A stretch of DNA of 64,000 bases. It comes from Blastococcus sp. TBT05-19. GTDB taxonomy: Bacteria; Actinomycetota; Actinomycetes; Mycobacteriales; Geodermatophilaceae. Numbering within the stretch: the stretch's first letter is position 1; every line of letters starts with the position of its first letter. The stretch lies in assembly GCF_003319095.1 (NCBI RefSeq), contig NZ_QOHI01000006.1, forward strand, positions 186,001 to 250,000, in the 5' to 3' direction. Position numbers and translations under genes: made by a program. A model generated the notes under the pieces. The model was not told the DNA's origin. It made no database searches and was given only the letters and a program-made list of their open reading frames with translations. Of this stretch, positions 37,573 to 58,883 are shown one piece after another.

Positions 37573-39663
37573 ATGCTGCCTCGATCCCTCCGCCGCCGAG
37601 CCGCGTTCTTCGCGGCCGCCAGCGCCGTGCTCCTCGCCGTCACCACGGCCGGGCCGACCACCCCGGCCGCCGCCGACGAGGAGTTCCGACCGCAGCTGGT
37701 CACGGTCGACACCCCGACCCGCGCCGACAAGGCGCTGCTGCAGACCCTCGGCCTCGACCTCACCGAGCACGCCGGCCACGACTACGTCGAGGTGGTGCTG
37801 CACACCCCGGCCGACCTCGCCGCCCTGCTCGGCGCCGGCCTCGGCTTCGACGTCCGCATCCCGGACCTGGTGGCACGCGACGCCGAGAACGACCGGGTCA
37901 ACGCCGCGTACGCCGCAGCCACGACGACCTCTCCCCTGCCGTCGGGCCGCGACGCCTACCGCACGCTGGCCGACTACAACGCCGACATGGCGGCGCTGGA
38001 GAGCGACCACCCCGACCTGGTCGAGCGCTTCGCGCTGCCGCACCGGTCCCTCGACGGGCGCGAGATCTTCGGCGTCGAGATCGGCAAGGACGTGCGCGGA
38101 CCCGACCGCGGCCTGCCGACCTTCGTGATGCTCGGCGTCCACCACGCGCGGGAGTGGCCCTCCGGTGAGCACGCGATGGAGTTCGCGGTGGACCTGGTGG
38201 AGAACTACGGCAGCGACCCCCGCATCACCGACCTGGTGGACCGGTCGCGCGTCGTCGTCGTGCCGGTCGTCAACGTCGACGGGTTCGAGCTCTCCCGCAC
38301 CGACGGGAGCCTGGTCGACATCCGGGAGGTGGACGGCGGTGGCACCGCGACGATCCTCGGCAACCCGGGGAACGCCTACAAGCGCAAGAACTGCCGCCTC
38401 GTCGACGGGCAGGACACCCCCGACGGCACCTGCCGGCTGGGCAGCCCCACCAGCCCGGGCGGCTACGGGACCGGCGTGGACCTCAACCGCAACTACGGCG
38501 GCTACTGGGGCGGCCCCGGGGCCTCGGACCTGTTCGCCGACCCGACCTACCGCGGCCCGGCGGCGTTCTCCGAGCCCGAGACGCAGAACATCCGGGAGCT
38601 GGTCAGCGGCCGGCACGTGACCACGCTGATCACCAACCACACGTTCTCGAACCTGGTGCTGCGGCCCAGCGGCGTGGCACCGGACCAGGTCGCCCCCAGC
38701 GAGGGCATCCCGCTCGGCAACCCCTTCGACGAGGCCGCGCTCAAGGAGCTCGGCGACGCGATGGCCGCGCAGAACGGGTACAAGAGCCAGCACGCGTGGG
38801 AGCTCTACGACACCACCGGCTCCACCGAGGACTGGTCCTACAACGCCACCGGCGGGTTCGGCTACACCTTCGAGATCGGTCCCGACGAGTTCCACCCGCC
38901 GTTCCCCGAGGTGATCGACGAGTACCTCGGCGCCGGACCGCACGCCGGCAAGGGCAACCGCGAGGCCTACCTGCTGGCCCTGCAGAACGCCGTCGACCCG
39001 GAGACGCACTCGGTGCTGACCGGCAAGGCCCCCGCCGGTGCGACCCTGCGGCTGGAGAAGACCGTCGCCACGCCCACCTGGGAGAGCTCGATCCAGGACA
39101 CCCTCGAGACGACCATGACCGTGGGGCCGGACGGCCGCTACACCTGGCACGTCAACCCCTCGACCCGGCCGGTGGTCAAGGCCCGCCAGGTCGAGACGGT
39201 GTCCGGGGAGCCGGTCGCCGAGCAGTCCTGGACGGGGACGACGGCGCCGCTGCAGTCCACCGACCAGGAGTTCACCGTCGACCGCGACGCCGACCTGCTC
39301 GAGATCACCCTCGACTGGCCGACGCCCGACGACCTGGACCTCGAGGTCTACCGGAAGAACGCCGACGGCTCGCTCACCCAGGCCGGCAGCTCGGGCAACT
39401 CGGTGGCGGAGAAGGAGCGGGTGCTGCTGCAGGACCCGGCGCAGGGCACCTACGTCCTGCGGGTCGTCAACTTCGCCTCGCTGACCCCCAGCTGGACGCT
39501 GGACGCCGCGCTGTTCGAGGCGGAGAGCTCGACCGTGCCCGGCCTGGTCGAGAACTGGACCCTCAGCTGCGAGCGCGACGGCCGGGTGCTGGAGCAGGTG
39601 CCCGTCGTCGTCGACCGCGGCCAGCAGCTGCGGGTGGACCTCAAGGCCTGCGGCCGCCGCTGA
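37573..39663 (+). CDS. Secreted M14 zinc carboxypeptidase
   Basis: A 696-residue exported metallopeptidase. A signal peptide (residues 1-34, ends AAADE) precedes a propeptide-like region to about 120 and an M14 catalytic domain. Zinc ligands are His191 and Glu194 (GVHHAREW) and His356 (TNHTFSN). The substrate-binding Arg lies in VDLNRNYGGYWGG and the catalytic Glu434 in YTFEIGPDEF. From about 470 to the end there are beta-sandwich modules with a PPC-like (bacterial prepeptidase C-terminal) fold, LLEITLDWPTPDDLDLEVYRK. The protein is much longer than classical carboxypeptidases. It is likely a scavenging enzyme acting outside the cell. Confidence 0.92.
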   Translation: MLPRSLRRRAAFFAAASAVLLAVTTAGPTTPAAADEEFRPQLVTVDTPTRADKALLQTLGLDLTEHAGHDYVEVVLHTPADLAALLGAGLGFDVRIPDLVARDAENDRVNAAYAAATTTSPLPSGRDAYRTLADYNADMAALESDHPDLVERFALPHRSLDGREIFGVEIGKDVRGPDRGLPTFVMLGVHHAREWPSGEHAMEFAVDLVENYGSDPRITDLVDRSRVVVVPVVNVDGFELSRTDGSLVDIREVDGGGTATILGNPGNAYKRKNCRLVDGQDTPDGTCRLGSPTSPGGYGTGVDLNRNYGGYWGGPGASDLFADPTYRGPAAFSEPETQNIRELVSGRHVTTLITNHTFSNLVLRPSGVAPDQVAPSEGIPLGNPFDEAALKELGDAMAAQNGYKSQHAWELYDTTGSTEDWSYNATGGFGYTFEIGPDEFHPPFPEVIDEYLGAGPHAGKGNREAYLLALQNAVDPETHSVLTGKAPAGATLRLEKTVATPTWESSIQDTLETTMTVGPDGRYTWHVNPSTRPVVKARQVETVSGEPVAEQSWTGTTAPLQSTDQEFTVDRDADLLEITLDWPTPDDLDLEVYRKNADGSLTQAGSSGNSVAEKERVLLQDPAQGTYVLRVVNFASLTPSWTLDAALFEAESSTVPGLVENWTLSCERDGRVLEQVPVVVDRGQQLRVDLKACGRR

Positions 39664-39800
39664 CCAGGCACGCAGCGGGACGCCGGACCACGGGGCCGGC
39701 GTCCCGCTGACGTGCGCCGTGGCGCCGGACGAGTAGCGGGCGCCGCCCCGATGACCCATGTTCTGTGGAAGTCTCCGTCCCTGGGAAGAGGTGGGCAGGC

Positions 39801-42056
39801 ATGACCGGAGTGCAGGTGCCCGACGGCGCCGATCTGATCGTGCTGGTCGACGTCGGCAGCGAGACGGAGCGGAAGCTGGTGCAGGCGACCCTCACGGACC
39901 TCGCCGACCGGCCCGTCGCGGTCGCGCCCCTCCGCGGGGACGCCCTCGCCGAGCCGCTCACCGACGCGGACCCCGACACCGTGGTGACCGCCGTCCGCGT
40001 CGCCTGGGCGCCGCGCCGTCCGGCCGGGCACGAGGAGGAGCCCCCGCGCCGGGGGCGCTGGTCGCGCGCGGCCCCCTCGCTGCGCCGCCGTCCTCCCGGG
40101 CTCCTGCAGAAGAGGGCGCTGCACCGGGACCCCGACCGTGCGCAGGTGGTGCTGGCCGCGCCCGCGACGGTCGCCGAGCTGGCCGGCCGGTGGGACGGCA
40201 CCGGGGAGCTGGCGGACTTCGTCGCGCAGCAGGCGGCCCTGGCCCTCGACCGGGCCGAGCGGGGCGTCGTCGGCGAGCGGGTCAAGGTGCCGCGGCACGT
40301 CGTCGAGGCGATCGAGGCCAGCCCCGACTTCGGCCGCGAGCTCGCCTCGCTCGCCGCGCGGATGGAGTGCCCCGAGGAGGAGCTGCGGGCCCGCGCCAGC
40401 GCCGCGCTCGACGGGCTGGTCGCCGCCGTCGACCCCGCGGCGGTCGAGGTGTTCACCGGCATGTTCCGGCCGCTGCACTCCCGCGCCTGGGACGTGCAGG
40501 CCGACACCGCCGGACTGGCACGCCTGCGCGAGCTCAACCGCCGGCACCCGCTGGTGTTCCTGCCCAGCCACCGGTCCTACGTCGACCCGCTGGTCCTCGC
40601 CGACGTGCTGTCGGCCCACGACTTCCCCCGCAACCACGTGCTGGGCGGCGACAACCTCTCCTTCTGGCCGGTCGGCCCGCTGGCCAAGCGCGCCGGCATC
40701 GTGTTCATCCGGCGCAGCTTCGGCGACGACCAGGTCTACAAGCTCGCCGTCCGGGAGTACTTCGCGTTCCTGCTGTCCAAGCGGTTCAACCTCGAGTGGT
40801 ACATGGAGGGCGGCCGCTCGCGCACGGGCAAGCTGCGCCCGCCGCGCCACGGGCTGCTGCGCTACGTCGCCGACGCCGTGGAGCGCCGCCGGGTCGACGA
40901 CGTCCTCCTCGTGCCGGTGTCCATCACCTACGACCAGCTCCGCGAGGTGTCGCTGATGGCGGCCGAGCAGGGCGGCGCGGCCAAGCGCGGCGAGGGTCTG
41001 TCCTGGCTGGCCTCCTACGCCCGCGAGCAGGTGAGCACGCCGCTGGGCACCGTGCACGTCGCCTTCGCCGAGCCGCTGTCGCTCGCGGCGGCGCTGGAGG
41101 CCGGGGCCGACCCCGCCGACCCCGATGCCCGCCGGCTGACGCTGCAGAAGGTGGCCTTCCAGGTCGCCGTCGGCATCAACTCGGTGACCCCCGCGACGGC
41201 GACGGCGCTGGTCACCCTGGCGCTGCTCGGCGTCCGGGACCGGGCCCTGACCCTCGGCCAGGTGCGGCGGGTGGTCGAGCCGCTGCTGGCCTACCTCGAC
41301 GAGCGGGAGCTGCCGCACTCGGGGGCGTCGCTGCGGACCTTCCGGGGCGTGCGCCAGGTGCTCGGCACGCTGGCCGGGCAGGGCGTCGTCACGGTCTACG
41401 ACGGCGGGGAGGAGCCGGTGCACGCGATCGAGCGCGGCCAGCACCTGGTGGCGGCGTTCTACCGCAACAGCGCCATCCACCACTTCGTCGACCGGGCGAT
41501 CGCCGAGCTCGTCATGCTGGCCGACCCGGCGGACCGCTGGGACGAGGCGCTGCGCCTGCGCGACCAGCTGAAGTTCGAGTTCTTCTTCCCCGAGCGCGAC
41601 GCCTACCGCGAGCGGATCGGCGCGGAGCTGCGGCGGCTGGACCCCGAGTGGGAGACCGCCGACGGCCGCGAGGTGCTGTGCCGGGTGCCCCTGCTGGTGG
41701 CCCACCGGGTGCTGCGGTCCTTCGTCGACGCCCAGCTGGTGGTGGCCGAGCGGCTCGCGGCGCGGGATCCGCGCACGCCGGTGGTGGACAGCGAGTTCCT
41801 CGCCGAGTGCGGCGGGATGGGCCAGCAGATGCTGCTGCAGGGCCGGCTGCACGGACCCGAGTCGCTCTCGCGCGAGCTGTTCGCGACCGCCCTGCAGCTG
41901 GCCGGGAACCTCGACCTGGTGGACCCCGGCCGCGAGGAGCTGGCCCGCCGCCGGCAGGAGTGGGCGGCGCAGGTGCGGGACGTGGTGTGCCGCGTGGTGG
42001 TCATCGACGAGCTGGACGCCGCGGCGCGGCGGGAGAGCGTGGGAGTGGAGCCGTGA
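39801..42056 (+). CDS. plsB: Glycerol-3-phosphate 1-O-acyltransferase (PlsB type)
   Basis: A 751-residue membrane-associated enzyme for the first step of glycerolipid synthesis. Acyltransferase motif I is HRSYVD (His257, Asp262) and the substrate Arg-containing motif II is VFIRRSF. Motif III is EGGRSRTGKL (Glu336) and motif IV is LVPVSITYD. The length and C-terminal helical domain fit the PlsB/PlsB2 family. The ATG at 39801 is preferred (AGAGG upstream) over an in-frame GTG at 39765. The 3' end overlaps the HAD-PlsC-DGAT fusion gene by four bases, so both proteins are made from one mRNA. Confidence 0.93.
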   Translation: MTGVQVPDGADLIVLVDVGSETERKLVQATLTDLADRPVAVAPLRGDALAEPLTDADPDTVVTAVRVAWAPRRPAGHEEEPPRRGRWSRAAPSLRRRPPGLLQKRALHRDPDRAQVVLAAPATVAELAGRWDGTGELADFVAQQAALALDRAERGVVGERVKVPRHVVEAIEASPDFGRELASLAARMECPEEELRARASAALDGLVAAVDPAAVEVFTGMFRPLHSRAWDVQADTAGLARLRELNRRHPLVFLPSHRSYVDPLVLADVLSAHDFPRNHVLGGDNLSFWPVGPLAKRAGIVFIRRSFGDDQVYKLAVREYFAFLLSKRFNLEWYMEGGRSRTGKLRPPRHGLLRYVADAVERRRVDDVLLVPVSITYDQLREVSLMAAEQGGAAKRGEGLSWLASYAREQVSTPLGTVHVAFAEPLSLAAALEAGADPADPDARRLTLQKVAFQVAVGINSVTPATATALVTLALLGVRDRALTLGQVRRVVEPLLAYLDERELPHSGASLRTFRGVRQVLGTLAGQGVVTVYDGGEEPVHAIERGQHLVAAFYRNSAIHHFVDRAIAELVMLADPADRWDEALRLRDQLKFEFFFPERDAYRERIGAELRRLDPEWETADGREVLCRVPLLVAHRVLRSFVDAQLVVAERLAARDPRTPVVDSEFLAECGGMGQQMLLQGRLHGPESLSRELFATALQLAGNLDLVDPGREELARRRQEWAAQVRDVVCRVVVIDELDAAARRESVGVEP

Positions 42057-44995
42057 GCCAGCAGGAGGACGTCGCCTCGACCGCCCGGGCGGGCGAGTGG
42101 TCCGAGGAGCAGCTGCTCGCCGACGTCGAGGCGGCGCCGAAGGGCCCGCGGATCGGCGCGTTCTTCGACTTCGACGGCACCGTGATCGACGGCTACTCGC
42201 TGGCCGCGTTCGCCCGGCACCACCTGCGGTCGCTGCACGTGACCCCGGCCGACCTCGGACAGCTGCTGCTCACCGGCCTGCGCGGCGTCACGACCGAGGA
42301 GGACTTCGAGAAGTTCACCGTCGCCGGCATGAAGGCCTGGGCCGGGCGCAGCGAGGACGAGCTGGTCGAGCTCGGCGAGCGCCTGTTCGTCCAGGGCATC
42401 GCCGGCTCGCTCTACCCCGAGGCGTGGCGGCTGGTGACCGCCCACCTGCGGGCCGGGCACACCGTCGTCCTCGCCTCGTCTGCCACCCGCTTCCAGGTGG
42501 AGCCGGCGGCCCGGGCCATGGGCGTGGAGCACATCCTGGTGTCGCCGGTCGAGATCACCGACGGGATCTGCACCGGCCGGCCCGGCGGCCCGCTGCTCTG
42601 GCGGGCCGGGAAGGCCGGTGCGGTCCGGAGCTTCGCCGAGGAGCACGGCATCGACCTGGCGCGCAGCTTCGCCTACTCCAACGGCGACGAGGACGTGCCG
42701 TTCCTGCGCACCGTGGGCCGGGCGCGGGCGCTCAACCCCGGCAGCGGCCTTGCGACCGCGGCCCGCCACTACTCGTGGCCGATCGCGCGGTTCCGGTCGC
42801 GCGGCCGCGGCGGTCCCACGGAGCTGCTGCGCACGGCAGCCGGCATCGGCGGGCTGCTCGGCGGCTTCGCCGCGGGGGTCGCCCTCGGTGCGCTCAACGG
42901 CTCCCGCCGGGAGGCCGTCGACCTCGGCATCACCCTCGGCGGTGAGCTGGGCAGCGCCCTGGCCGGCGTGCGGCTGGACGTCCAGGGCGCCGAGCACCTG
43001 GCCAACCGGCCGGCGGTCTACCTGTTCAACCACCAGAGCCAGCTCGACGTGCTGGTGCTGGCCAAGCTGCTGCGCGGTGGCTTCACGGCCGTGGCGAAGA
43101 AGGAGCTCGCGAACACCCCCGGCTTCGGGTTGGCGTTCCGGCTGGCCGACGTCGCGTTCATCGACCGCGGCGACCCGGCCAAGGCCCGCCAGGCGCTGGA
43201 ACCGGCCGTGCAGCGGCTGCGGGAAGGGATCTCGCTCGTCATCGCGCCCGAGGGCACCCGCTCGGCCACGCCCAACCTCGGCCCGTTCAAGAAGGGCGCC
43301 TTCCACGTGGCCATGCAGGCGGGGGTGCCGATCGTGCCGATCGTCATCCGCAACGCCGGCGAGCTCATGTGGCGGGGCGCGTCCACCATCCAGTCCGGGA
43401 CCGTGCAGGTGCGCGTGCTGCCGCCGGTGTCGACCGAGGGCTGGACCCTCCCCCAGCTCGGCGCGAAGGTCGAGGAGGTCCGGGGGCTGTACCTGGACGC
43501 GCTGGCCGACTGGTCCGGGCGCAGCACCCGGCCGGTCGAGGTCACCGAGGCCGATGCCGACGACGAGGGCGCCGCTCCCCCGGCCACGGCGCTGGACTGG
43601 GGCATCTCCGCCGAGATGAACCCGCTGGAGACGGCGATGTGGCGGGCGGAGGTCGCCGATCCGCGGTTGCGCAGCAACGTCACCCTGCTGGAGCTGCTCG
43701 AGCCGGCGCCGGACTGGGAGCGGCTGCGCGCCGCGCACGAGTGGGCCTCGCGCATGGTCCCCCGGATGCGCCAGCGGGTCGTGGAGCCGGCCCTCGGCGT
43801 GGGCGCGCCGCGCTGGGTGACCGTCGCGGAGCTCGACCTCGACCGACACCTGCACCGGGTGCGCCTCGAGGAACCGGGCTCGATGCGCCAGCTGCTCGAC
43901 GTCGTGGGCGAGTTCGCCGCCGCACCGCTGGACCGCGACCGCCCCCTCTGGGAGGTGCTCTTCGTCGAGGGGCTGGCCGACGGGCGGGCCGGCTACGTGG
44001 TCAAGACCCACCACAGCACCACCGACGGGCTGGGTGCGGTGCAGCTGATGAGCCTGCTGCACAGCCGGACCGCCGAGCACGACCCCTCGCGCCCCGAGCC
44101 GCCCGTGCCGCTGCCCGACGAGGACGCCTCGCCGGTCGGCGTCCTCCGCGACCAGATCGTCGGGACGGCGAAGTCCGCACCGCTGGCTGCCCTGCGCCGC
44201 GGTGTCGAGGCCCTGAGCAGCCTGCGCCGGCCGTGGGAGGCGGCGACCTCCGCTGTCGAGGCGGCGCGCTCGGCCGGCTCGACGCTGTCACCGCCGAAGG
44301 GCACCGGCTCGGACCTGCTGACGCCGCGGGGCGGCGGCTGGCACTTCGAGGTCGCCGAGGTGCCGCTGGCCGACCTGAAGGCCGGGGCCAAGGCCGCCGG
44401 CGGATCGCTCAACGACGGGTTCCTCGCCGCGGTCGTCGGCGGCTTCCGGCGGTACCACGAGCGGCTCGGGGCGCCGGCGGGAACGCTGACGCTGGGCATC
44501 CCGATCAGCCTCCGGGCGCAGGACGACCCGCAGGGCGGCAACCGGTTCACCGGCGCCCGCCTGCCGGCGTCGCTCGCCGAGCCCGACCCGGGAACCCGGA
44601 TCAAGGCGATCCGCGAGTTCGTCCTGTCGGCGCGCAACGCCAGCGGGTCCGGGGTGCTCGAGGACCTCGTCGGGCCGGTGATCGGTTGGCTGCCGGCCCC
44701 GGTCCTCGGCGCGCTGTCCGGTTCCCTGACCAGCGGGAACGACGTGCAGGTGTCGAACATGCCGGGGGTGTCGCACCCGGTCTACATCGCCGGGTCGCGG
44801 ATCGTGCGGATGTTCCCCTTCGGCCCGCTGCCCGGCTGCGCGGCGATGATCACGCTGCTGTCGCACGAGGACACCTGCTGCATCGGGCTCAACCTCGACG
44901 CCGCCGCCGTCACCGACCCCGCCGGTCTGCTGGCCGACCTGCAGGCGGGGCTGGACGAGGTGGTGGCGCTGGGCCGGGCGGAGAGCACCCGGTGA
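42053..44995 (+). CDS. Fusion protein: HAD phosphatase + acylglycerol-phosphate acyltransferase + WS/DGAT
   Basis: A 980-residue protein with three domains in one frame. Residues 30-260: HAD-IB hydrolase with FFDFDGTVID (Asp39, Asp41), LASSATRF and SNGDEDVPFL. Residues 310-500: PlsC-type acyltransferase with NHQSQLD (His327, Asp332), FIDRGDPAKA, APEGTRSATP (Glu400) and VPIVPIVIRNAGE. Residues 520-975: wax ester synthase/diacylglycerol acyltransferase with KTHHSTTDG (His653-His654, Asp658), PISLRAQDDPQGGNRF and VSNMPG near the C-terminus. HAD-PlsC fusions are known (mycobacterial PlsC) and the WS/DGAT homologue is usually a separate neighbour. There is no stop codon or start signal at the junction near residue 510, only a short acidic linker. 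Confidence 0.9.
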   Translation: MSQQEDVASTARAGEWSEEQLLADVEAAPKGPRIGAFFDFDGTVIDGYSLAAFARHHLRSLHVTPADLGQLLLTGLRGVTTEEDFEKFTVAGMKAWAGRSEDELVELGERLFVQGIAGSLYPEAWRLVTAHLRAGHTVVLASSATRFQVEPAARAMGVEHILVSPVEITDGICTGRPGGPLLWRAGKAGAVRSFAEEHGIDLARSFAYSNGDEDVPFLRTVGRARALNPGSGLATAARHYSWPIARFRSRGRGGPTELLRTAAGIGGLLGGFAAGVALGALNGSRREAVDLGITLGGELGSALAGVRLDVQGAEHLANRPAVYLFNHQSQLDVLVLAKLLRGGFTAVAKKELANTPGFGLAFRLADVAFIDRGDPAKARQALEPAVQRLREGISLVIAPEGTRSATPNLGPFKKGAFHVAMQAGVPIVPIVIRNAGELMWRGASTIQSGTVQVRVLPPVSTEGWTLPQLGAKVEEVRGLYLDALADWSGRSTRPVEVTEADADDEGAAPPATALDWGISAEMNPLETAMWRAEVADPRLRSNVTLLELLEPAPDWERLRAAHEWASRMVPRMRQRVVEPALGVGAPRWVTVAELDLDRHLHRVRLEEPGSMRQLLDVVGEFAAAPLDRDRPLWEVLFVEGLADGRAGYVVKTHHSTTDGLGAVQLMSLLHSRTAEHDPSRPEPPVPLPDEDASPVGVLRDQIVGTAKSAPLAALRRGVEALSSLRRPWEAATSAVEAARSAGSTLSPPKGTGSDLLTPRGGGWHFEVAEVPLADLKAGAKAAGGSLNDGFLAAVVGGFRRYHERLGAPAGTLTLGIPISLRAQDDPQGGNRFTGARLPASLAEPDPGTRIKAIREFVLSARNASGSGVLEDLVGPVIGWLPAPVLGALSGSLTSGNDVQVSNMPGVSHPVYIAGSRIVRMFPFGPLPGCAAMITLLSHEDTCCIGLNLDAAAVTDPAGLLADLQAGLDEVVALGRAESTR

Positions 44996-45456
44996 CCGGA
45001 CCCACGAGCGTCACCTTCGAGACGACGGTGACCGCCGTCGGGAACAACACCGGTATCGAGGTGCCCGAGGAGGTGCTCGAGCAGCTGGGCGCCGGGAAGC
45101 GGCCGGCGGTGCTCGTCGACCTCGACGGTTACGAGTACCGCACCACCGCCGGCGTCATGGGCGGCCGCTCCATGCTGAGCGTCAGCGCCGCGGTCCGGAA
45201 GGCCACCGGGCTGGCCGGGGGCGACCCGGTCCGGGTGACGCTGACCGTGGCCGACACCCCGCGCGAGGTTGACGTGCCCGACGACCTCGCCGCCGCCCTG
45301 GCCGCCGACGAGCAGGCGGGCACCTTCTTCGCCGGGCTGTCGAACAGCCTGCAGCGGTTCCACGTCGACTCCGTCACCGGCGCGAAGACGCCGGAGACCC
45401 GGCAGCGGCGGATCGACAAGGCGCTGACGCTGTTCCGCGAGGGCAGGAAGCGCTGA
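44992..45456 (+). CDS. DUF1905/YdeI-OmpD-associated domain protein
   Basis: A 154-residue soluble protein. The N-terminal half is a DUF1905 barrel (FETTVTAVGNNTGIEVPEEVLEQLG ... VMGGRSMLSVSAAVRKATG). The C-terminal helices match the YdeI/OmpD-associated region (VPDDLAAALAADEQAGTFFAGLSNSLQRFHVDSV ... TRQRRIDKALTLFREGRK). The function is unknown. The GTG overlaps the end of the lipid fusion gene (GTGA), so it belongs to the plsB operon, and a strong terminator follows. Confidence 0.88.
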   Translation: MTGPTSVTFETTVTAVGNNTGIEVPEEVLEQLGAGKRPAVLVDLDGYEYRTTAGVMGGRSMLSVSAAVRKATGLAGGDPVRVTLTVADTPREVDVPDDLAAALAADEQAGTFFAGLSNSLQRFHVDSVTGAKTPETRQRRIDKALTLFREGRKR

Positions 45457-45460
45457 GACG

Positions 45461-45497
45461 CCGACGGCCCCCGTGACGAGGTCACGGGGGCCGTCGG
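45461..45497. terminator. Bidirectional terminator hairpin
   Basis: Perfect 17-bp stem (CCGACGGCCCCCGTGAC at 45461-45477, complement at 45481-45497) with the loop GAG, between the convergent DUF1905 and BCCT genes, four bases after the former's stop codon. Confidence 0.9.
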
Positions 45498-45507
45498 TGC
45501 TGCTGGA

Positions 45508-47292
45508 CTACGAGCGGTCCTTCGTCCCGTCGTCCTGCGCGGTGGTCACCCGCGTGCCGGCCGGGTCGTCGGTGTCACCGGCGGCCTCCACCACGAGCAC
45601 GAAGTCCTCGCCGTGCTTGGAGATGCCCTCGACCACGGCCTGCTCGACGGCCTCGGTGGCGAAGGTGCGACGCAGGACCATCGGGTCCGACCGCACGTCC
45701 TTGGCCAGCGCGACCGCCAGGCCGACCATGACCAGGGCGAAGGGCAGCGCGGCGATGATCGTCAGGTTCTGCAGCCCCGAGAGGGCCTCGTCCCCACCGA
45801 CCAGCAGCATGACCGCGGCGACCGCGCCCATGACCACGCCCCAGAAGATCACCGTCGGGCGGCTCGGCGCGAGCGTGCCCCGCTCGGACAGCGAGCCCAT
45901 GACGATCGAGGCGGCGTCGGCACCGGAGACGAAGAAGATCGCCACCAGGACCATCACCAGCACGGTCATGAGGGTGGCCAGCGGGAACTGCTCGAGGACC
46001 CCGAAGAGCTGGCCCTCCGACGTCGCCTGGCCGGCGACGTCCACGCCGTCGCGCTGCGCGGCGATCCCGGCCCCGCCGAAGACGGCGAACCACAGGAGCG
46101 TGACCACGCTCGGCACCAGCAGGACGCCGGTGACGAACTGCCGGATGGTGCGGCCGCGGCTGATCCGGGCGATGAAGACGCCGACGAACGGCGTCCAGGA
46201 GACCCACCAGGCCCAGTAGAAGACGGTCCAGCCGCGCAGCCACTCGGCCATGGCGTCGCCGCCGCTGGCCTCGGTGCGGGCGGCCATCGAGGCCAGGTCG
46301 GAGAAGTAGCTGCCGATCGCGCCGGGGATCAGGTTGAGGATCAGCACGGTCGGGCCGACCACGAACACGAACAGGGCCAGCACGACGGCCAGCACCATGT
46401 TGATGTTGGACAGCCACTGGATGCCCTTGGCGATGCCGGACACCGCCGAGGCCACGAAGGCCGCGGTCAGCACGGCGATGATCGCGACCAGCAGGCCGTT
46501 GCCGACGGAGCCGGCCCAGCCGAGGATCTCCAGGCCGCTGCCGATCTGCAGCGCGCCGAGCCCGAGCGAGGCGGCGGAGCCGAACAGCGTGGCGAAGATG
46601 GCCAGGACGTCGATGAGCTTCCCGGCCGGCCCCTCGGTGCGGCGCTTGCCGAACAGCGGCTCGAAGGCCGCGCTGATCAGCTGCCTGCGGCCCCGGCGGA
46701 AGGTGCCGTAGGCGATCGCGAGACCGACGACGGCGTAGATCGCCCACGGGTGCAGGGTCCAGTGGAAGAGCGTCGTGGCCATCGCCGTCTGCATGGCCTC
46801 GGGGGTCTCGGCGGTGACGCTGCGCGGCGGCGGCGAGACGTAGTGGGTCAGCGGCTCCGCGACGCCGTAGAACATCAGGCCGATGCCCATGCCGGCGCTG
46901 AACATCATCGCGATCCAGGAGACGGTCCGGAACTCGGGCGCCTCGTCGTCGCGGCCCAGCGGGATGCGGCCGTACTTGCTGGCCGCGAGCCACAGGACGA
47001 AGACGACGAACGCCGACGCGAGGGTCACGAACAGCCAGCCGAGGTTCTTCTCGACCCAGACGAGAGCGCTGCCGCTGGCCGAGCCCAGGCCGGTCGGCGA
47101 CAGGAAGCCCCAGGCCACGAAGGCCAGCGCGAGCACGGCGGCGATGGCGAAGACCGTGCGGTCGAGGACGCCCCGCTGGTCGGCGGGGGCCGGCGGCGCG
47201 GCGATGGCCGGGTGCTCGTCGGTGCCGGGGCCGGTGCCGGGGAGGGCGGTGGGCGCGGAGCCGTCGCGGCCCGACGGTGCGGTGGGTGTCAT
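45508..47292 (-). CDS. BCCT-family betaine/choline/carnitine transporter
   Basis: A 594-residue secondary transporter with twelve transmembrane helices. Family signatures are GMGIGLMFYGVAEP (glycine-rich unwound helix) and the aromatic box FYWAWWVSWTPFVGVFIARISRGR. The N-terminal tail (about 50 residues) and the C-terminal tail (after about 545, charged) are cytoplasmic; in BetP such tails sense osmotic stress. It probably takes up glycine betaine or a related osmolyte with Na+ or H+. The ATG at 47292 is the first start near the family N-terminus. Confidence 0.93.
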   Translation of the reverse strand: MTPTAPSGRDGSAPTALPGTGPGTDEHPAIAAPPAPADQRGVLDRTVFAIAAVLALAFVAWGFLSPTGLGSASGSALVWVEKNLGWLFVTLASAFVVFVLWLAASKYGRIPLGRDDEAPEFRTVSWIAMMFSAGMGIGLMFYGVAEPLTHYVSPPPRSVTAETPEAMQTAMATTLFHWTLHPWAIYAVVGLAIAYGTFRRGRRQLISAAFEPLFGKRRTEGPAGKLIDVLAIFATLFGSAASLGLGALQIGSGLEILGWAGSVGNGLLVAIIAVLTAAFVASAVSGIAKGIQWLSNINMVLAVVLALFVFVVGPTVLILNLIPGAIGSYFSDLASMAARTEASGGDAMAEWLRGWTVFYWAWWVSWTPFVGVFIARISRGRTIRQFVTGVLLVPSVVTLLWFAVFGGAGIAAQRDGVDVAGQATSEGQLFGVLEQFPLATLMTVLVMVLVAIFFVSGADAASIVMGSLSERGTLAPSRPTVIFWGVVMGAVAAVMLLVGGDEALSGLQNLTIIAALPFALVMVGLAVALAKDVRSDPMVLRRTFATEAVEQAVVEGISKHGEDFVLVVEAAGDTDDPAGTRVTTAQDDGTKDRS

Positions 47293-50863: not shown

Positions 50864-53728
50864 TCAGCTGCAGCCGCTGGTGGAGCCGCAGCCCTCGCAG
50901 ACGTAGCAGCTGCCGGCCGGGCGCATCTTCGTGCCGCAGGTCATGCACAGCGGCGCGTCGGTGGCGGTCCCGGTGACCAGCTCGAGCAGCTCGGCCGAGG
51001 AGTGGGCCTCCTTGACCGACTTCGGGCCCTCGGGGGTGACCTTCTCCTCCACCTTGGCGGTCTCGATCGGCGCGGAGCCACGCAACTGCTCCAGGTCGAC
51101 CTCCTCCTCCTGCACGGCGGCGGTCGAGGCCGACGAGCCGTAGCTGCCCGCGACCTGCGCGGCCCGCTCCTCGGCGGTGAAGATGCCCAGGCCGGCCCGC
51201 TTCTCGACGGGCAGGTGGTCCAGGGCCAGGCGACGGAAGATGTAGTCCATCACCGACTGGGCGATCCGGATGTCCGGGTCGTCGGTCATGCCGGCCGGCT
51301 CGAAGCGCATGTTGGTGAACTTGGAGATGTAGGTCTCCAGCGGCACACCGTGCTGCAGCGCCAGGGAGATGCCGATCGAGAAGGCGTCCATGACACCGGC
51401 CAGGGTCGAGCCCTGCTTGCCGAGCTTGAGGAAGACCTCACCGAGGCTGCCGTCCTCGTACATCCCGGCGGTCATGTAGCCCTCGGCACCGGCGACGCTG
51501 AACGAGGTGGTGACGCTCGTCCGCTTCTTCGGGAGCCGCTTGCGCACCGGGTGCGACAGCGCGGTCGGAGCGGTCTCCTCCACCTTCGCCTCGGCCTTCT
51601 TGGCCTTGGCGTCGGACAGCGGCTGGCCGACCTTGCAGTTGTCGCGGTAGATCGCGAGGGCCTTGAGGCCCATCTTCCAGCCCTGGAAGTAGATGTTCTC
51701 GACCTCTTCGACGGTCGCCGTCTCCGGCATGTTGACCGTCTTGGAGATGGCGCCGGAGATGAACGGCTGCACCGCGGCCATCATGCGGACGTGGCCCATC
51801 GGGGAGATGGCCCGCTCGCCCATGGCGCAGTCGAAGACCTCGTAGTGCTCGGGACGCAGGGTCGGGGCGTCCACGACGTGGCCGTGCTCGGCGATGTACT
51901 CGACGATCGCCTCGATCTGCTCCTCCTGGTAGCCCAGGCTGCGCAGTGCCCGCGGCACCGTCTGGTTGACGATCTGCATCGAGCCGCCGCCGACCAGCTT
52001 CTTGAACTTGACCAGCGAGAAGTCCGGCTCGATGCCGGTCGTGTCGCAGTCCATCATGAAGCCGATGGTGCCGGTGGGGGCCAGCACCGAGGCCTGGGCG
52101 TTGCGCCAGCCGTTCTCGGCACCGATCTCGAGGCACTCCTGCCACTGGGCGGTGGCGGCCTTCAGCACGTCGGCGTCGTCGGCGCCGACCGGGCGGATGG
52201 CGTCGTTGGCCGCGGCGTGCTTGCGCATGACCCGGGCGTGGGCGTCGGCGTTGCGGGCGAAGCCGTCGTACGCGCCGACGATGCCGGCGAGGTCGGCCGA
52301 GCGCCGGTAGGCGGTGCCGGTCATCAGCGAGGTGATGGCCGCGGCCAGGCTCTGGCCGCCGCGCGAGTCGTAGGCGTGGCCCGTCGCCATGAGCAGCGCG
52401 CCCAGGTTGGCGTAGCCGATGCCCAGCTGGCGGTAGGCGCGGGTGGTCTCGCCGATCGGGTCGGTCGGGAAGTCGGCGAAGCAGATCGAGATGTCCATCG
52501 CGGTGATGACCAGCTCAACGGCCTTCACGAAGTTCTTGGAGTCGAAGGTGCCGTCGTCCTTGAGGAACTTCATGAGGTTCAGCGACGCCAGGTTGCACGA
52601 GCTGTTGTCCAGGCTCATGTACTCCGAGCAGGGGTTGGACGCGTTGATGCGGCCGGTCTCGGGGTTGGTGTGCCAGTCGTTGATCGTGTCGTCGTACTGG
52701 ATGCCCGGGTCGGCGCACTCCCACGCGGCCTGGGTGACCTTGCGGAACAGGGCCTTGGCGTCGACGGTCTCGATGACCGAGCCGTCCATGCGGGCGCGCA
52801 GACCGAAGTCACCGGCCTCCTCGACCGCGCGCATGAACTCGTCGGAGACGCGGACGGAGTTGTTGGCGTTCTGGTACTGGACGCTGGTGATGTCCTTGCC
52901 GCCGAGGTCCATGTCGTAGCCGGCGTCGCGCAGGGCGCGGATCTTGTTCTCCTCGCGCGCCTTGGTCTCGATGAACTCCTCGATGTCCGGGTGGTCGATG
53001 TCGAGGACGACCATCTTGGCCGCGCGACGGGTCGCGCCACCGGACTTGATGGTCCCGGCGGAGGCGTCGGCGCCGCGCATGAAGGAGACCGGGCCGGAGG
53101 CGGTCCCACCGGAGGACAGCAGCTCCTTGGAGGAGCGGATGCGGGAGAGGTTCAGGCCGGCACCGGAGCCGCCCTTGAAGATCAGGCCCTCCTCGCGGTA
53201 CCAGTTCAGGATCGAGTCCATCTCGTCGTCGACGGCGAGGATGAAGCAGGCGCTGACCTGCTGCGGGGCGCTCGTGCCGACGTTGAACCAGACGGGGCTG
53301 TTGAAGCTGAAGTACTGGTGCAGCAGCATCCAGGTGAGCTCGTGCTCGAAGATCTCGGCGTCGCCCTCGGTGGCGAAGTAGCCGTGCTCGCGACCGGCCT
53401 CGGTGTAGGTGAGGACCACGCGGTCGATGAGCTGGCGCAGGCTCGTCTCGCGCTGCGGCTGGCCCACGGCGCCGCGGAAGTACTTCGTCGTGACGATGTT
53501 GGTGGCGTTGATGCTCCACTCGGCGGGGAACTCCACGCCGCGCTGCTCGAAGTTGATCGAGCCGTCACGCCAGTTGGTCATGACGACGTCGCGGCGCTCC
53601 CAGCTCACCTCGTCGTACGGGTGCACACCGGCGGTGGTGAAGACGCGCTTGATCTTGAGGCCCTTGCGGCTGGGCGCCTTGCCTGCGCGGCGGGGCCGGG
53701 TGGCCAAGCGGTCGTCGGTCTCGGTCAT
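50864..53728 (-). CDS. nrdJ: Adenosylcobalamin-dependent ribonucleotide reductase (class II)
   Basis: A 954-residue enzyme that makes deoxynucleotides using vitamin B12. The large catalytic barrel shows INASNPCSEYMSLDNSSCNLASLNL (active-site NPCSE), the substrate loop FKGGSGAGLNLSRIR, and LAPTGTIGFMMDCDTTGIEPD. A linker near 780-800 (KKRTSVTTSFSVAG) leads to a second conserved part with GCPLE-like HGVPLETYISKF. The C-terminus carries paired CxxC motifs (CMTCG ... CYVCEGCG) that recycle the active-site disulphide and may bind zinc. It lies 144 bases downstream of nrdR on the same strand, as in streptomycetes. Confidence 0.96.
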   Translation of the reverse strand: MTETDDRLATRPRRAGKAPSRKGLKIKRVFTTAGVHPYDEVSWERRDVVMTNWRDGSINFEQRGVEFPAEWSINATNIVTTKYFRGAVGQPQRETSLRQLIDRVVLTYTEAGREHGYFATEGDAEIFEHELTWMLLHQYFSFNSPVWFNVGTSAPQQVSACFILAVDDEMDSILNWYREEGLIFKGGSGAGLNLSRIRSSKELLSSGGTASGPVSFMRGADASAGTIKSGGATRRAAKMVVLDIDHPDIEEFIETKAREENKIRALRDAGYDMDLGGKDITSVQYQNANNSVRVSDEFMRAVEEAGDFGLRARMDGSVIETVDAKALFRKVTQAAWECADPGIQYDDTINDWHTNPETGRINASNPCSEYMSLDNSSCNLASLNLMKFLKDDGTFDSKNFVKAVELVITAMDISICFADFPTDPIGETTRAYRQLGIGYANLGALLMATGHAYDSRGGQSLAAAITSLMTGTAYRRSADLAGIVGAYDGFARNADAHARVMRKHAAANDAIRPVGADDADVLKAATAQWQECLEIGAENGWRNAQASVLAPTGTIGFMMDCDTTGIEPDFSLVKFKKLVGGGSMQIVNQTVPRALRSLGYQEEQIEAIVEYIAEHGHVVDAPTLRPEHYEVFDCAMGERAISPMGHVRMMAAVQPFISGAISKTVNMPETATVEEVENIYFQGWKMGLKALAIYRDNCKVGQPLSDAKAKKAEAKVEETAPTALSHPVRKRLPKKRTSVTTSFSVAGAEGYMTAGMYEDGSLGEVFLKLGKQGSTLAGVMDAFSIGISLALQHGVPLETYISKFTNMRFEPAGMTDDPDIRIAQSVMDYIFRRLALDHLPVEKRAGLGIFTAEERAAQVAGSYGSSASTAAVQEEEVDLEQLRGSAPIETAKVEEKVTPEGPKSVKEAHSSAELLELVTGTATDAPLCMTCGTKMRPAGSCYVCEGCGSTSGCS

Positions 53729-53872
53729 GGTGTGGAGCTCTCCCTGGTCGTGTGTCGCGTGGTGCGTCGCGGGGCTGCGCGGTGCTGCTGCGCGGTGGTG
53801 GATCGGGGGCTGGGGAAGAGCCGCGATCGGTAACTGCTCGAACTGCTGTCTATCGGTCGGCACTGACAGTTC

Positions 53873-58189: not shown

Positions 58190-58883
58190 GCACCCAGCGT
58201 GACAGAACGAACGCGTCCAGTGCATGAACCACGCCCAGCAGCACGATCCCGGCTGCGGCGCCCACCACGGCGTCGGTGACCCAGTGGTAGTCCAGCGACA
58301 CCATCGCGACGCCCGTGCCGACCGGCCCCAGGATGCTCAGCCACCAGAAGGTCCGCTGCACGGCGGCGGGCAGCCCGTAGCTGACCGCCTGCCAGCGGGC
58401 CACGCCCCACATCACCACGGCGTTGGCCACGTGCCCGGACGGGAACGAGGCGCCGTCGTCGTGGAAGAAGTAGGAGCCGGGGAAGGCGGGCGCGGTGCGG
58501 CCGGTGCCGTGCTTGATGGCGTAGATCCCGGCGGTGAGGACGGCGACCGCGATCACCACCCGCAGGGCCGGCACCCACGCGCCGCGCCGCCAGAGCAGGT
58601 AGCCGACCAGTCCGGCCAGGACCACCAGGATCGTGACCCGCCCGCCGAGCTGGGTCACGAGCCAGACCGCCGGATAGGCGTCGGCGTCGCGCAGACCCCA
58701 GTCGCTCACGATCTCCGACACCCGCAGGTCCAGGCGGAGCATGCGCCCATCGGCGAGCAGGTCGGCGGTGATCAGAGCGCCGACCAGGAACGAGACGGCC
58801 ACCAGCCACCAGGGCGGCCGGCCGACCGAGACCACGGCCGGGGAGCCGGAGATCCCGGCCTCCCGCACCGCAAACCTGGTCAC
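58161..58883 (-). CDS. PAP2-family lipid phosphatase
   Basis: A 240-residue membrane phosphatase with about six transmembrane helices. The three PAP2 motifs are present with small changes: KHGTGRTAP for KX6RP, the intact PSGH (FPSGHVAN) and SLDYHWVTDAVVG for SRX5HX3D (His and Asp kept, the Arg after Ser replaced by Leu). It probably removes phosphate from phosphatidate, undecaprenyl pyrophosphate or a related lipid at the outer face. It overlaps the exported beta-propeller-like gene downstream. Confidence 0.9.
   Translation of the reverse strand: MTRFAVREAGISGSPAVVSVGRPPWWLVAVSFLVGALITADLLADGRMLRLDLRVSEIVSDWGLRDADAYPAVWLVTQLGGRVTILVVLAGLVGYLLWRRGAWVPALRVVIAVAVLTAGIYAIKHGTGRTAPAFPGSYFFHDDGASFPSGHVANAVVMWGVARWQAVSYGLPAAVQRTFWWLSILGPVGTGVAMVSLDYHWVTDAVVGAAAGIVLLGVVHALDAFVLSRWVRADAGRPTA

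Follow-up and report, generated by a model that had tools for sequence, protein, structure and literature searches.

A conserved actinobacterial protein joining HAD-IB, PlsC-type, and WS/DGAT domains, encoded beside PlsB, as a candidate route to triacylglycerol

The DNA used in this study, referred to below as the window, is a stretch of 64,000 nucleotides from Blastococcus sp. TBT05-19 (assembly GCF_003319095.1, contig NZ_QOHI01000006.1, positions 186,001–250,000 of the forward strand). It contains a frame of 980 codons that runs from a GTG start to a TGA stop without internal stops, in which Pfam places, in order, HAD, Acyltransferase, WS_DGAT_cat, and WS_DGAT_C domains, all above cut-off (Table 1). 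An earlier note on this DNA had described three lipid-enzyme domains in one uninterrupted frame, and the frame, the Pfam domains, and the conserved copies in other genomes bear this out. The solved structures nearest to the protein in sequence are 6chj (WS/DGAT), 5kym (PlsC), 7nxg (wax synthase), and 3fvv (HAD-type). Upstream lies plsB, whose TGA stop shares nucleotides with the GTG start of the fusion; the plsB product scores 807.5 bits against the equivalog model NF002886 (cut-off 721). The downstream gene, which encodes a DUF1905/YdeI protein (44992–45456), overlaps the stop of the fusion gene in the same way.

Table 1. Genes, domains, and other features of the plsB-fusion locus, in window coordinates
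Feature	Position	Strand	Basis and details
PlsB-type glycerol-3-phosphate acyltransferase, 763 aa	39765..42056	+	NCBIfam NF002886, Pfam GPAT_C and Acyltransferase
HAD / PlsC / WS-DGAT fusion gene, 980 aa	42053..44995	+	Pfam domains and family alignment
HAD-IB phosphatase-like domain, residues 36–219	42158..42709	+	Pfam PF12710, NCBIfam TIGR01490; D39, D41, S142, K187, N210-x-x-E213-D214
Hydrophobic stretch between HAD and PlsC, residues 263–281, possible membrane helix	42839..42895	+	Kyte-Doolittle, model
PlsC-type 1-acylglycerol-3-phosphate acyltransferase domain, residues 307–432	42971..43348	+	Pfam PF01553, NCBIfam TIGR00530
Variable junction linker, residues 488–513, predicted disordered	43514..43591	+	AlphaFold pLDDT, codon alignment
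WS/DGAT domain, residues 522–969	43616..44959	+	Pfam PF03007 and PF06974, NCBIfam TIGR02946

The AlphaFold model of the fusion protein, calculated from an alignment of 53 rows that holds proteins from the window and the named loci only, comprises three confident domains (mean pLDDT 87.5), and pLDDT falls below 50 only at residues 1–11 and 489–510. Confidence in how the domains are arranged relative to one another is given by the pTM alone, 0.56. The 19-residue Kyte-Doolittle mean has its maximum in the protein, 1.73, at residues 263–281, where the model has a helix (residues 255–280); this stretch could anchor the HAD and PlsC domains at the membrane.

In the 23 complete copies that were aligned, the linker (residues 488–513, approximately) varies in sequence and in length, in whole codons, and contains no stops. 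Its third codon positions are the most variable, and its first and second positions are also far more variable than those within the domains, the pattern expected if the linker is translated and loosely constrained. Within residues 484–525 of the window protein, Met522 is the sole start codon in frame, and the split WS/DGAT proteins of other genomes appear to start upstream of the place that matches it. The uninterrupted relatives, the whole-codon changes in the linker, the position of Met522, and the domains of the AlphaFold model therefore exclude, as far as can be judged at the level of sequence, the hidden stop that the earlier note had named as a possible sequencing error; no stop is present in the intact copies. 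It is very improbable that the fusion is an artefact, either an assembly error that joined two genes or a frame that yields two proteins in the cell. A GC content of 74% favors long chance frames, and one related genome (G067) has a frame that is broken in the WS/DGAT half, but the agreement across 14 Geodermatophilaceae and 11 Pseudonocardia genomes, together with the linker features just described, argues for a single protein.

Among 112 Geodermatophilaceae genomes, 14, including that of the window, contain the unbroken fusion, and these copies span four genera. Over the aligned length, the other 13 share 79–92% identity with the window protein. The genome with the broken frame is the 15th in the family with a fusion, and two more (G030 and G032) have a HAD-PlsC protein with a stop soon after PlsC. 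Contigs were also scanned with two peptide patterns, both from the N-terminal part of the protein, which gave at least 595 pattern matches and 256 relatives, with 80 named loci kept. At least 18 of the named loci are fused (one from Blastococcus, six from Geodermatophilus, and 11 from Pseudonocardia), the seven from Geodermatophilaceae being genomes already counted within the 14; two of the Pseudonocardia loci end at contig ends and nine are complete. The unbroken frame is present in at least 25 distinct genomes and is full length in 23 of these, a lower bound because the scan used only two N-terminal patterns and its 595 matches are themselves a minimum. No unbroken three-part match was found outside Geodermatophilaceae in a sample of 397 genomes of the order, 89 of which had a match at 1e-90, or in a sample of 394 genomes of the class, 23 of which had a match at 1e-130. 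In both samples, few candidates were scored per genome, and stops were read out only for the near cases named below and for loci L087–L090. Such samples miss members, since the Pseudonocardia fusions came from the named scan only.

Several apparent fusions were rejected. A match over residues 18–974 (G259) is interrupted by a TAG in frame where the parts meet, a listed frame of 1361 residues (G356) has stops and about 1 kb separating them, and in G473 there is a TAG and the WS/DGAT part lies farther off. The parts are likewise split by stops in Spongiibacter (L111) and Woeseiaceae (L124). Loci L115, L119, and L120, scored as fused by a length rule, owe their extra length to a Lys/Ala-rich tail rather than to a WS/DGAT domain. 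An apparent joining of PlsB to HAD-PlsC in L127 was discarded because in that record PlsB is followed by a run of N and a stop.

Elsewhere, PlsB and HAD-PlsC are usually encoded by neighboring genes, accompanied in many loci, though not in all, by a WS/DGAT gene; both the order and the orientation of the genes differ between loci. In the tree of the HAD-PlsC part, obtained by a quick method, 22 fused rows (a count that leaves out L115, L119, and L120) form one clade with an SH-aLRT value of 99, and in the WS/DGAT tree 20 fused rows form one clade with a bootstrap value of 100 and an SH-aLRT value of 99. The grouping of the fused proteins in the trees of both halves suggests that a single fusion event is likely. 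A split HAD-PlsC group from Actinomycetospora stands beside the fused clade (SH-aLRT 90); it groups with the fused halves and has PlsB upstream but differs in that none of the nine loci of this clade (L113, L116, L126, L131–L133, L135, L136, and L088) has a WS/DGAT match at E 1e-10. The fusion would have arisen once, when the HAD-plsC gene of the plsB / HAD-plsC / atf cluster known from actinobacteria was joined to the WS/DGAT gene of that cluster, and would then have been inherited or passed among Geodermatophilaceae and Pseudonocardia. The sharing between these two groups may reflect exchange or common descent, and the trees fit both.

The plsB-fusion pair is present in only one of 23 genomes of the genus of the window, and for this reason its lateral arrival was considered. 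The carboxypeptidase gene that precedes plsB adjoins plsB also in two genomes of another genus (G060 and G067). Two congeners (G006 and G007) lack the pair and have its flanking genes near each other, and in G006 a degraded fragment of the DUF1905/YdeI gene remains at the gap, which points to loss in that genome. From the shared carboxypeptidase gene and this remnant, loss in the congeners is at least as likely as lateral arrival, and recombinational exchange may also have played a part. No PlsB was found in the 22 congeners and no PlsY (PF02660) in any of the 23 genomes; among 14 control genomes, eight have a PlsY match. A mycobacterial PlsM-like enzyme can acylate glycerol-3-phosphate, according to the available part of PMC10593935, and such an enzyme is a candidate for starting glycerolipid synthesis in the 22 congeners.

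PlsB is encoded directly upstream of the fusion in the 14 intact family copies, in G067, and in the fused named loci, of which there are at least 18. In the 14 intact copies and G067, a GTG overlapping the end of plsB could serve as the start codon of the fusion, though 11 of these 15 have one or more later possible starts before the HAD domain as well. GPAT_C/PlsB is present in 16 of the 112 Geodermatophilaceae genomes, namely the 15 with the fusion, G067 included, and G032, in which PlsB is beside a split HAD-PlsC; within the family, PlsB and the fusion therefore go together. Because the upstream gene, which the earlier note had not remarked on, encodes a PlsB-type glycerol-3-phosphate acyltransferase, the two proteins may account for every step between glycerol-3-phosphate and triacylglycerol, and the pair is a candidate for the complete route.

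The PlsC domain is recognized by PF01553 (E 2.9e-34) and by TIGR00530 (108.1 bits, cut-off 102.95), and it matches 5kym by sequence (E 1.3e-23). A Foldseek search had no PlsC among the best 50 of 834 matches. The domain has the HX4D sequence at residues 327–332 (HQSQLD), FxxR at 369–372, and EGTR at 400–403, and His327, Asp332, Arg372, Glu400, Arg403, and Pro429 are present in all of 106 HAD-PlsC frames that were compared. We take the HX4D, FxxR, EGTR, and P blocks to be the conserved blocks of PlsC. Of the 106 frames, 98 are distinct, some genomes having been entered twice.

The WS/DGAT domain matches WS_DGAT_cat (PF03007) at residues 522–788 (E 7.1e-50, 170.7 bits, cut-off 23.6) and WS_DGAT_C (PF06974) at residues 829–969 (E 7.6e-17), and its part of the AlphaFold model resembles 6chj with a TM score of 0.72. 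The HHxxxDG motif, HHSTTDG at residues 653–659, and all the other WS/DGAT positions checked, which were of our own choosing, are invariant in the 14 Geodermatophilaceae copies. It is unlikely, in our judgment, that this domain makes wax esters, acylates another alcohol, or is being lost, with membrane phosphatidate as the main product of the protein. Consistent with such a role, the TIGR02946 score, 310.4 bits, is only narrowly above its cut-off of 309.95, and several WS/DGAT residues that do not vary in Geodermatophilaceae are replaced in four of the nine complete Pseudonocardia copies (L103, L104, L106, and L107), while their HAD and PlsC parts are 76–80% identical to those of the window protein; L102 has one change, and in L107 the motif is HQxxxDE. 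In addition, since there is no PlsY match in the genus of the window, PlsB could feed phospholipids. On the other hand, the invariance in Geodermatophilaceae and an intact HHxxxDG in eight of the nine complete Pseudonocardia copies argue against this reading. The earlier note had named a loss of activity in one domain as evidence against its proposal; judged by motif, such a loss is seen for WS/DGAT in some Pseudonocardia and not in the window or the other Geodermatophilaceae.

The HAD domain is identified by PF12710 (E 1.8e-33) and TIGR01490 (131.5 bits, cut-off 98.3), and this part of the AlphaFold model resembles 3fvv with a TM score of 0.86 by target length. Motif I is the DFDGT sequence at residues 39–43; motifs II and IV were placed by alignment with 3fvv and the SerB structures 3p96 and 5is2. 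Asp39, Asp41, Gly42, Thr43, and Lys187, the Lys of motif III, are present in all 106 HAD-PlsC frames, the column of Ser142 is Ser or Thr in all 106, and Asp214 is conserved in 105. In this alignment, however, the first Asp of motif IV is absent from the fusion protein, where it is replaced by Asn210, with Glu213 preceding the second Asp. The statement of the earlier note that each active-site motif is intact thus applies to DFDGT, HX4D, EGTR, and HHSTTDG but not to motif IV of the HAD domain, and this change is the chief reason to question the phosphatase step. Asn occupies the first position in 102 of the 106 frames, and 101 have N-x-x-E-D rather than the canonical D-x-x-N-D. The exceptions are D-x-x-E-D in G042 and G178, N-x-x-E-A in G030, D-x-x-A-D in G259, and D-x-x-D-D in L124; G042, which retains Asp, is the only representative among the 106 frames of the genus (g19) most common in the order scan. 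Of 12 stand-alone HAD-IB paralogues, picked by hand from the listing, all have Asp at this position, 11 have D-x-x-N-D, and none has N-x-x-E-D. Because N-x-x-E-D predominates in the fused and HAD-PlsC frames and D-x-x-N-D in the stand-alone paralogues, the Asn together with a Glu three residues on looks like an exchange of the acidic position that would keep a working metal site, not like decay.

The deposited SerB chains 5it4 and 5it0 have Asn at the same position of motif IV. In the sections of PMC4270767 available, the D341N mutant of MtSerB2 had a Vmax of 2062 as compared with 14250, and the double mutant in which the second Asp was also replaced was inactive. Those sections also cite work on other enzymes: in human PSP, haloacid dehalogenase, and Ca-ATPase, substitution by residues other than Glu abolished activity almost completely, and in human PSP and Ca-ATPase the phosphoenzyme was lost as well. 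The residual activity of MtSerB2, the near-complete loss cited for the other enzymes, and the Asn in nearly all the frames would fit a HAD domain that is weak or non-catalytic and has a structural or regulatory role, leaving the protein as a PlsC and DGAT enzyme. The conservation of the other catalytic positions and the pairing of the Asn with Glu make this quite unlikely.

A second alternative is that the HAD domain is a phosphatase for some other small or lipid phosphate, that diacylglycerol is supplied by PAP2 enzymes, and that the fusion serves co-localization rather than a chain of three steps. The named HAD-IB relatives are phosphoserine and histidinol phosphatases, and the genome has seven PAP2-type matches. 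We regard this reading as rather unlikely, however, because HAD is joined to PlsC in both Actinomycetota and Gammaproteobacteria with Asp39, Asp41, Thr43, and Lys187 unchanged in the 106 frames, and HAD-PlsC mostly has PlsB nearby and often WS/DGAT genes too. The alternative readings considered here overlap, and the likelihoods we attach to them do not sum to one.

In the reading that we prefer, to which we give an even chance, the locus is a two-gene triacylglycerol module with a single origin of the fusion. PlsB would convert glycerol-3-phosphate to lysophosphatidate, which the PlsC domain of the fusion would acylate to phosphatidate; the HAD-IB domain would then dephosphorylate phosphatidate to diacylglycerol, and the WS/DGAT domain would acylate this to triacylglycerol, all the steps being placed at the membrane face. 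This path from lysophosphatidate, which the earlier note had set out, is the likeliest. The sequences establish the fusion, its conservation and single clade, its link to plsB, and the PlsC and WS/DGAT motifs; each enzyme activity, the acyl-CoA donor, and the hand-over of lipids are inferred, and so above all is the role of the HAD domain as a phosphatidate phosphatase, which is suggested by its gene partners only and which the earlier note had treated with the same caution. Triacylglycerol may also be made by other routes, because the genome has, besides the PAP2 matches, two further WS/DGAT genes. A stronger form of the proposal, which we put forward tentatively and with less than even confidence, is that one polypeptide catalyzes three consecutive reactions of the Kennedy pathway with hand-over of lipid from domain to domain and that its HAD-IB domain with N-x-x-E-D represents a phosphatidate phosphatase class of its own, so far undescribed, and supplies the phosphatase step that the widespread actinobacterial cluster has seemed to lack.

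The same three proteins and the same proposed pathway are known from Rhodococcus jostii RHA1, in which, according to the accessible portions of PMC4850399, atf9, plsB, and plsC form an operon and plsC encodes an AGPAT-HAD fusion; there, the WS/DGAT protein of atf9 is encoded by a separate gene. The authors of that report (2016) suggested that the HAD part may be a phosphatase, in which case the operon would encode all the enzymes of triacylglycerol synthesis, for vegetative growth, and called for more work. Their proposal would predict the occurrence of HAD-PlsC fused to a DGAT. Expression of the RHA1 operon falls when nitrogen is limiting, and the main DGAT in that strain is Atf8, not Atf9 (PMC4850399, same portions); for this reason the module may not be a route to storage fat. 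In mycobacteria, the corresponding proteins Rv2482c, Rv2483c (plsC), and Rv2484c (triacylglycerol synthase) are encoded by separate neighboring genes in the part of PMC10699116 at hand, which calls Rv2483c bifunctional, includes Rv2483c and Rv2484c in a lipid-inclusion set, and refers to earlier reports of both in the conversion of lysophosphatidate to phosphatidate and in triacylglycerol synthesis. These two partial sources and our comparison of loci agree with the earlier note that elsewhere HAD-PlsC has a separate adjoining WS/DGAT gene. AGPAT-HAD genes are also neighbors of WS/DGAT genes, rather than fused to them, in sediment Actinomycetota and Proteobacteria, and the function of AGPAT-HAD is yet to be elucidated, as stated in the excerpted text of PMC10351704. 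Similarly, Rv2483c is described in the available part of PMC10593935 as a PlsC homologue conserved in mycobacteria whose role is still open. The portions at hand of PMC4850399, PMC10351704, PMC10699116, and PMC10593935 contain no report of HAD activity for the HAD-PlsC family. The window protein shares with the RHA1 PlsC and Rv2483c type an N-terminal HAD domain joined to PlsC and a gene beside plsB, but that type ends after PlsC, whereas the window protein continues into WS/DGAT and is therefore a variant of it. Our searches of open-license papers turned up no description of a fusion of all three domains, which is weak evidence of absence, and the word "acyltransferase" does not occur in PMC9686282, which concerns Geodermatophilaceae.

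Taken at the level of sequence, the protein is a real and conserved fusion of already known enzymes. The joining of the HAD domain to the acyltransferases that would act before and after it provides a Rosetta-stone argument for the HAD phosphatase proposal, and one harmless protein would allow all three steps to be assayed and each of them to be disabled separately. Should it work as proposed, the plsB-fusion pair would be a compact two-gene tool for triacylglycerol production, and in the bacteria that have it two overlapping genes would suffice to convert glycerol-3-phosphate and acyl-CoA to fat.

The pair formed by the plsB-type GPAT gene and the fusion gene directly downstream of it is absent between the same flanking genes in two congeners of the window genome, G006 and G007 (loci L179 and L180, compared with window positions 39660–45574). 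A decayed DUF1905/YdeI fragment is retained in G006; in the window, a DUF1905/YdeI gene comes after the pair. The stop codon of the fusion gene is overlapped by this DUF1905/OmdA gene (GTGA), and the two may therefore be cotranscribed. No match to it at E 1e-10 was obtained in the fused loci tested (L034, L035, L073–L076, L099, L105, and L106). Among the 23 genomes of the window's genus, PlsY was found in none and a PlsB-type GPAT had no match in 22, leaving 22 genomes with a match to neither enzyme. The same window has a PAP2-type match ~13 kb from the fusion gene.

Coordinates of features in the window and in comparison loci
Feature	Location	Strand	Remarks
DUF1905/OmdA (YdeI-like) gene	window 44992-45456	+	overlaps stop of fusion gene
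Class II B12-dependent ribonucleotide reductase	window 50864-53863	-	ordinary neighbour
PAP2-type phosphatase match	window 58221-58562	-	PF01569, 46.1 bits
HAD-PlsC with histone-like tail	L115 6010-8010		Actinomycetales MAG
HAD-PlsC with histone-like tail	L119 6010-7956		Intrasporangiaceae
HAD-PlsC with histone-like tail	L120 6010-7848		Intrasporangiaceae

HAD-PlsC also occurs in other architectures. In a second gene order, found in Nocardia (L125, L140, and L152), Mycobacterium (L142 and L160), and others, HAD-PlsC is followed by PlsB, and the WS/DGAT gene is on the opposite strand. The HAD-PlsC proteins of L115, L119, and L120 have, in place of WS/DGAT, a long C-terminal tail that is histone-like and rich in Lys, Ala, and Thr.

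The frame of the fusion in L075, from the one-contig genome of another genus of the family (G067), is broken within the WS/DGAT half, which may represent either an error or a real loss. In the three-domain fusions of four Pseudonocardia loci (L103, L104, L106, and L107), several positions are altered in the WS/DGAT half, and the HAD and PlsC domains are still conserved.
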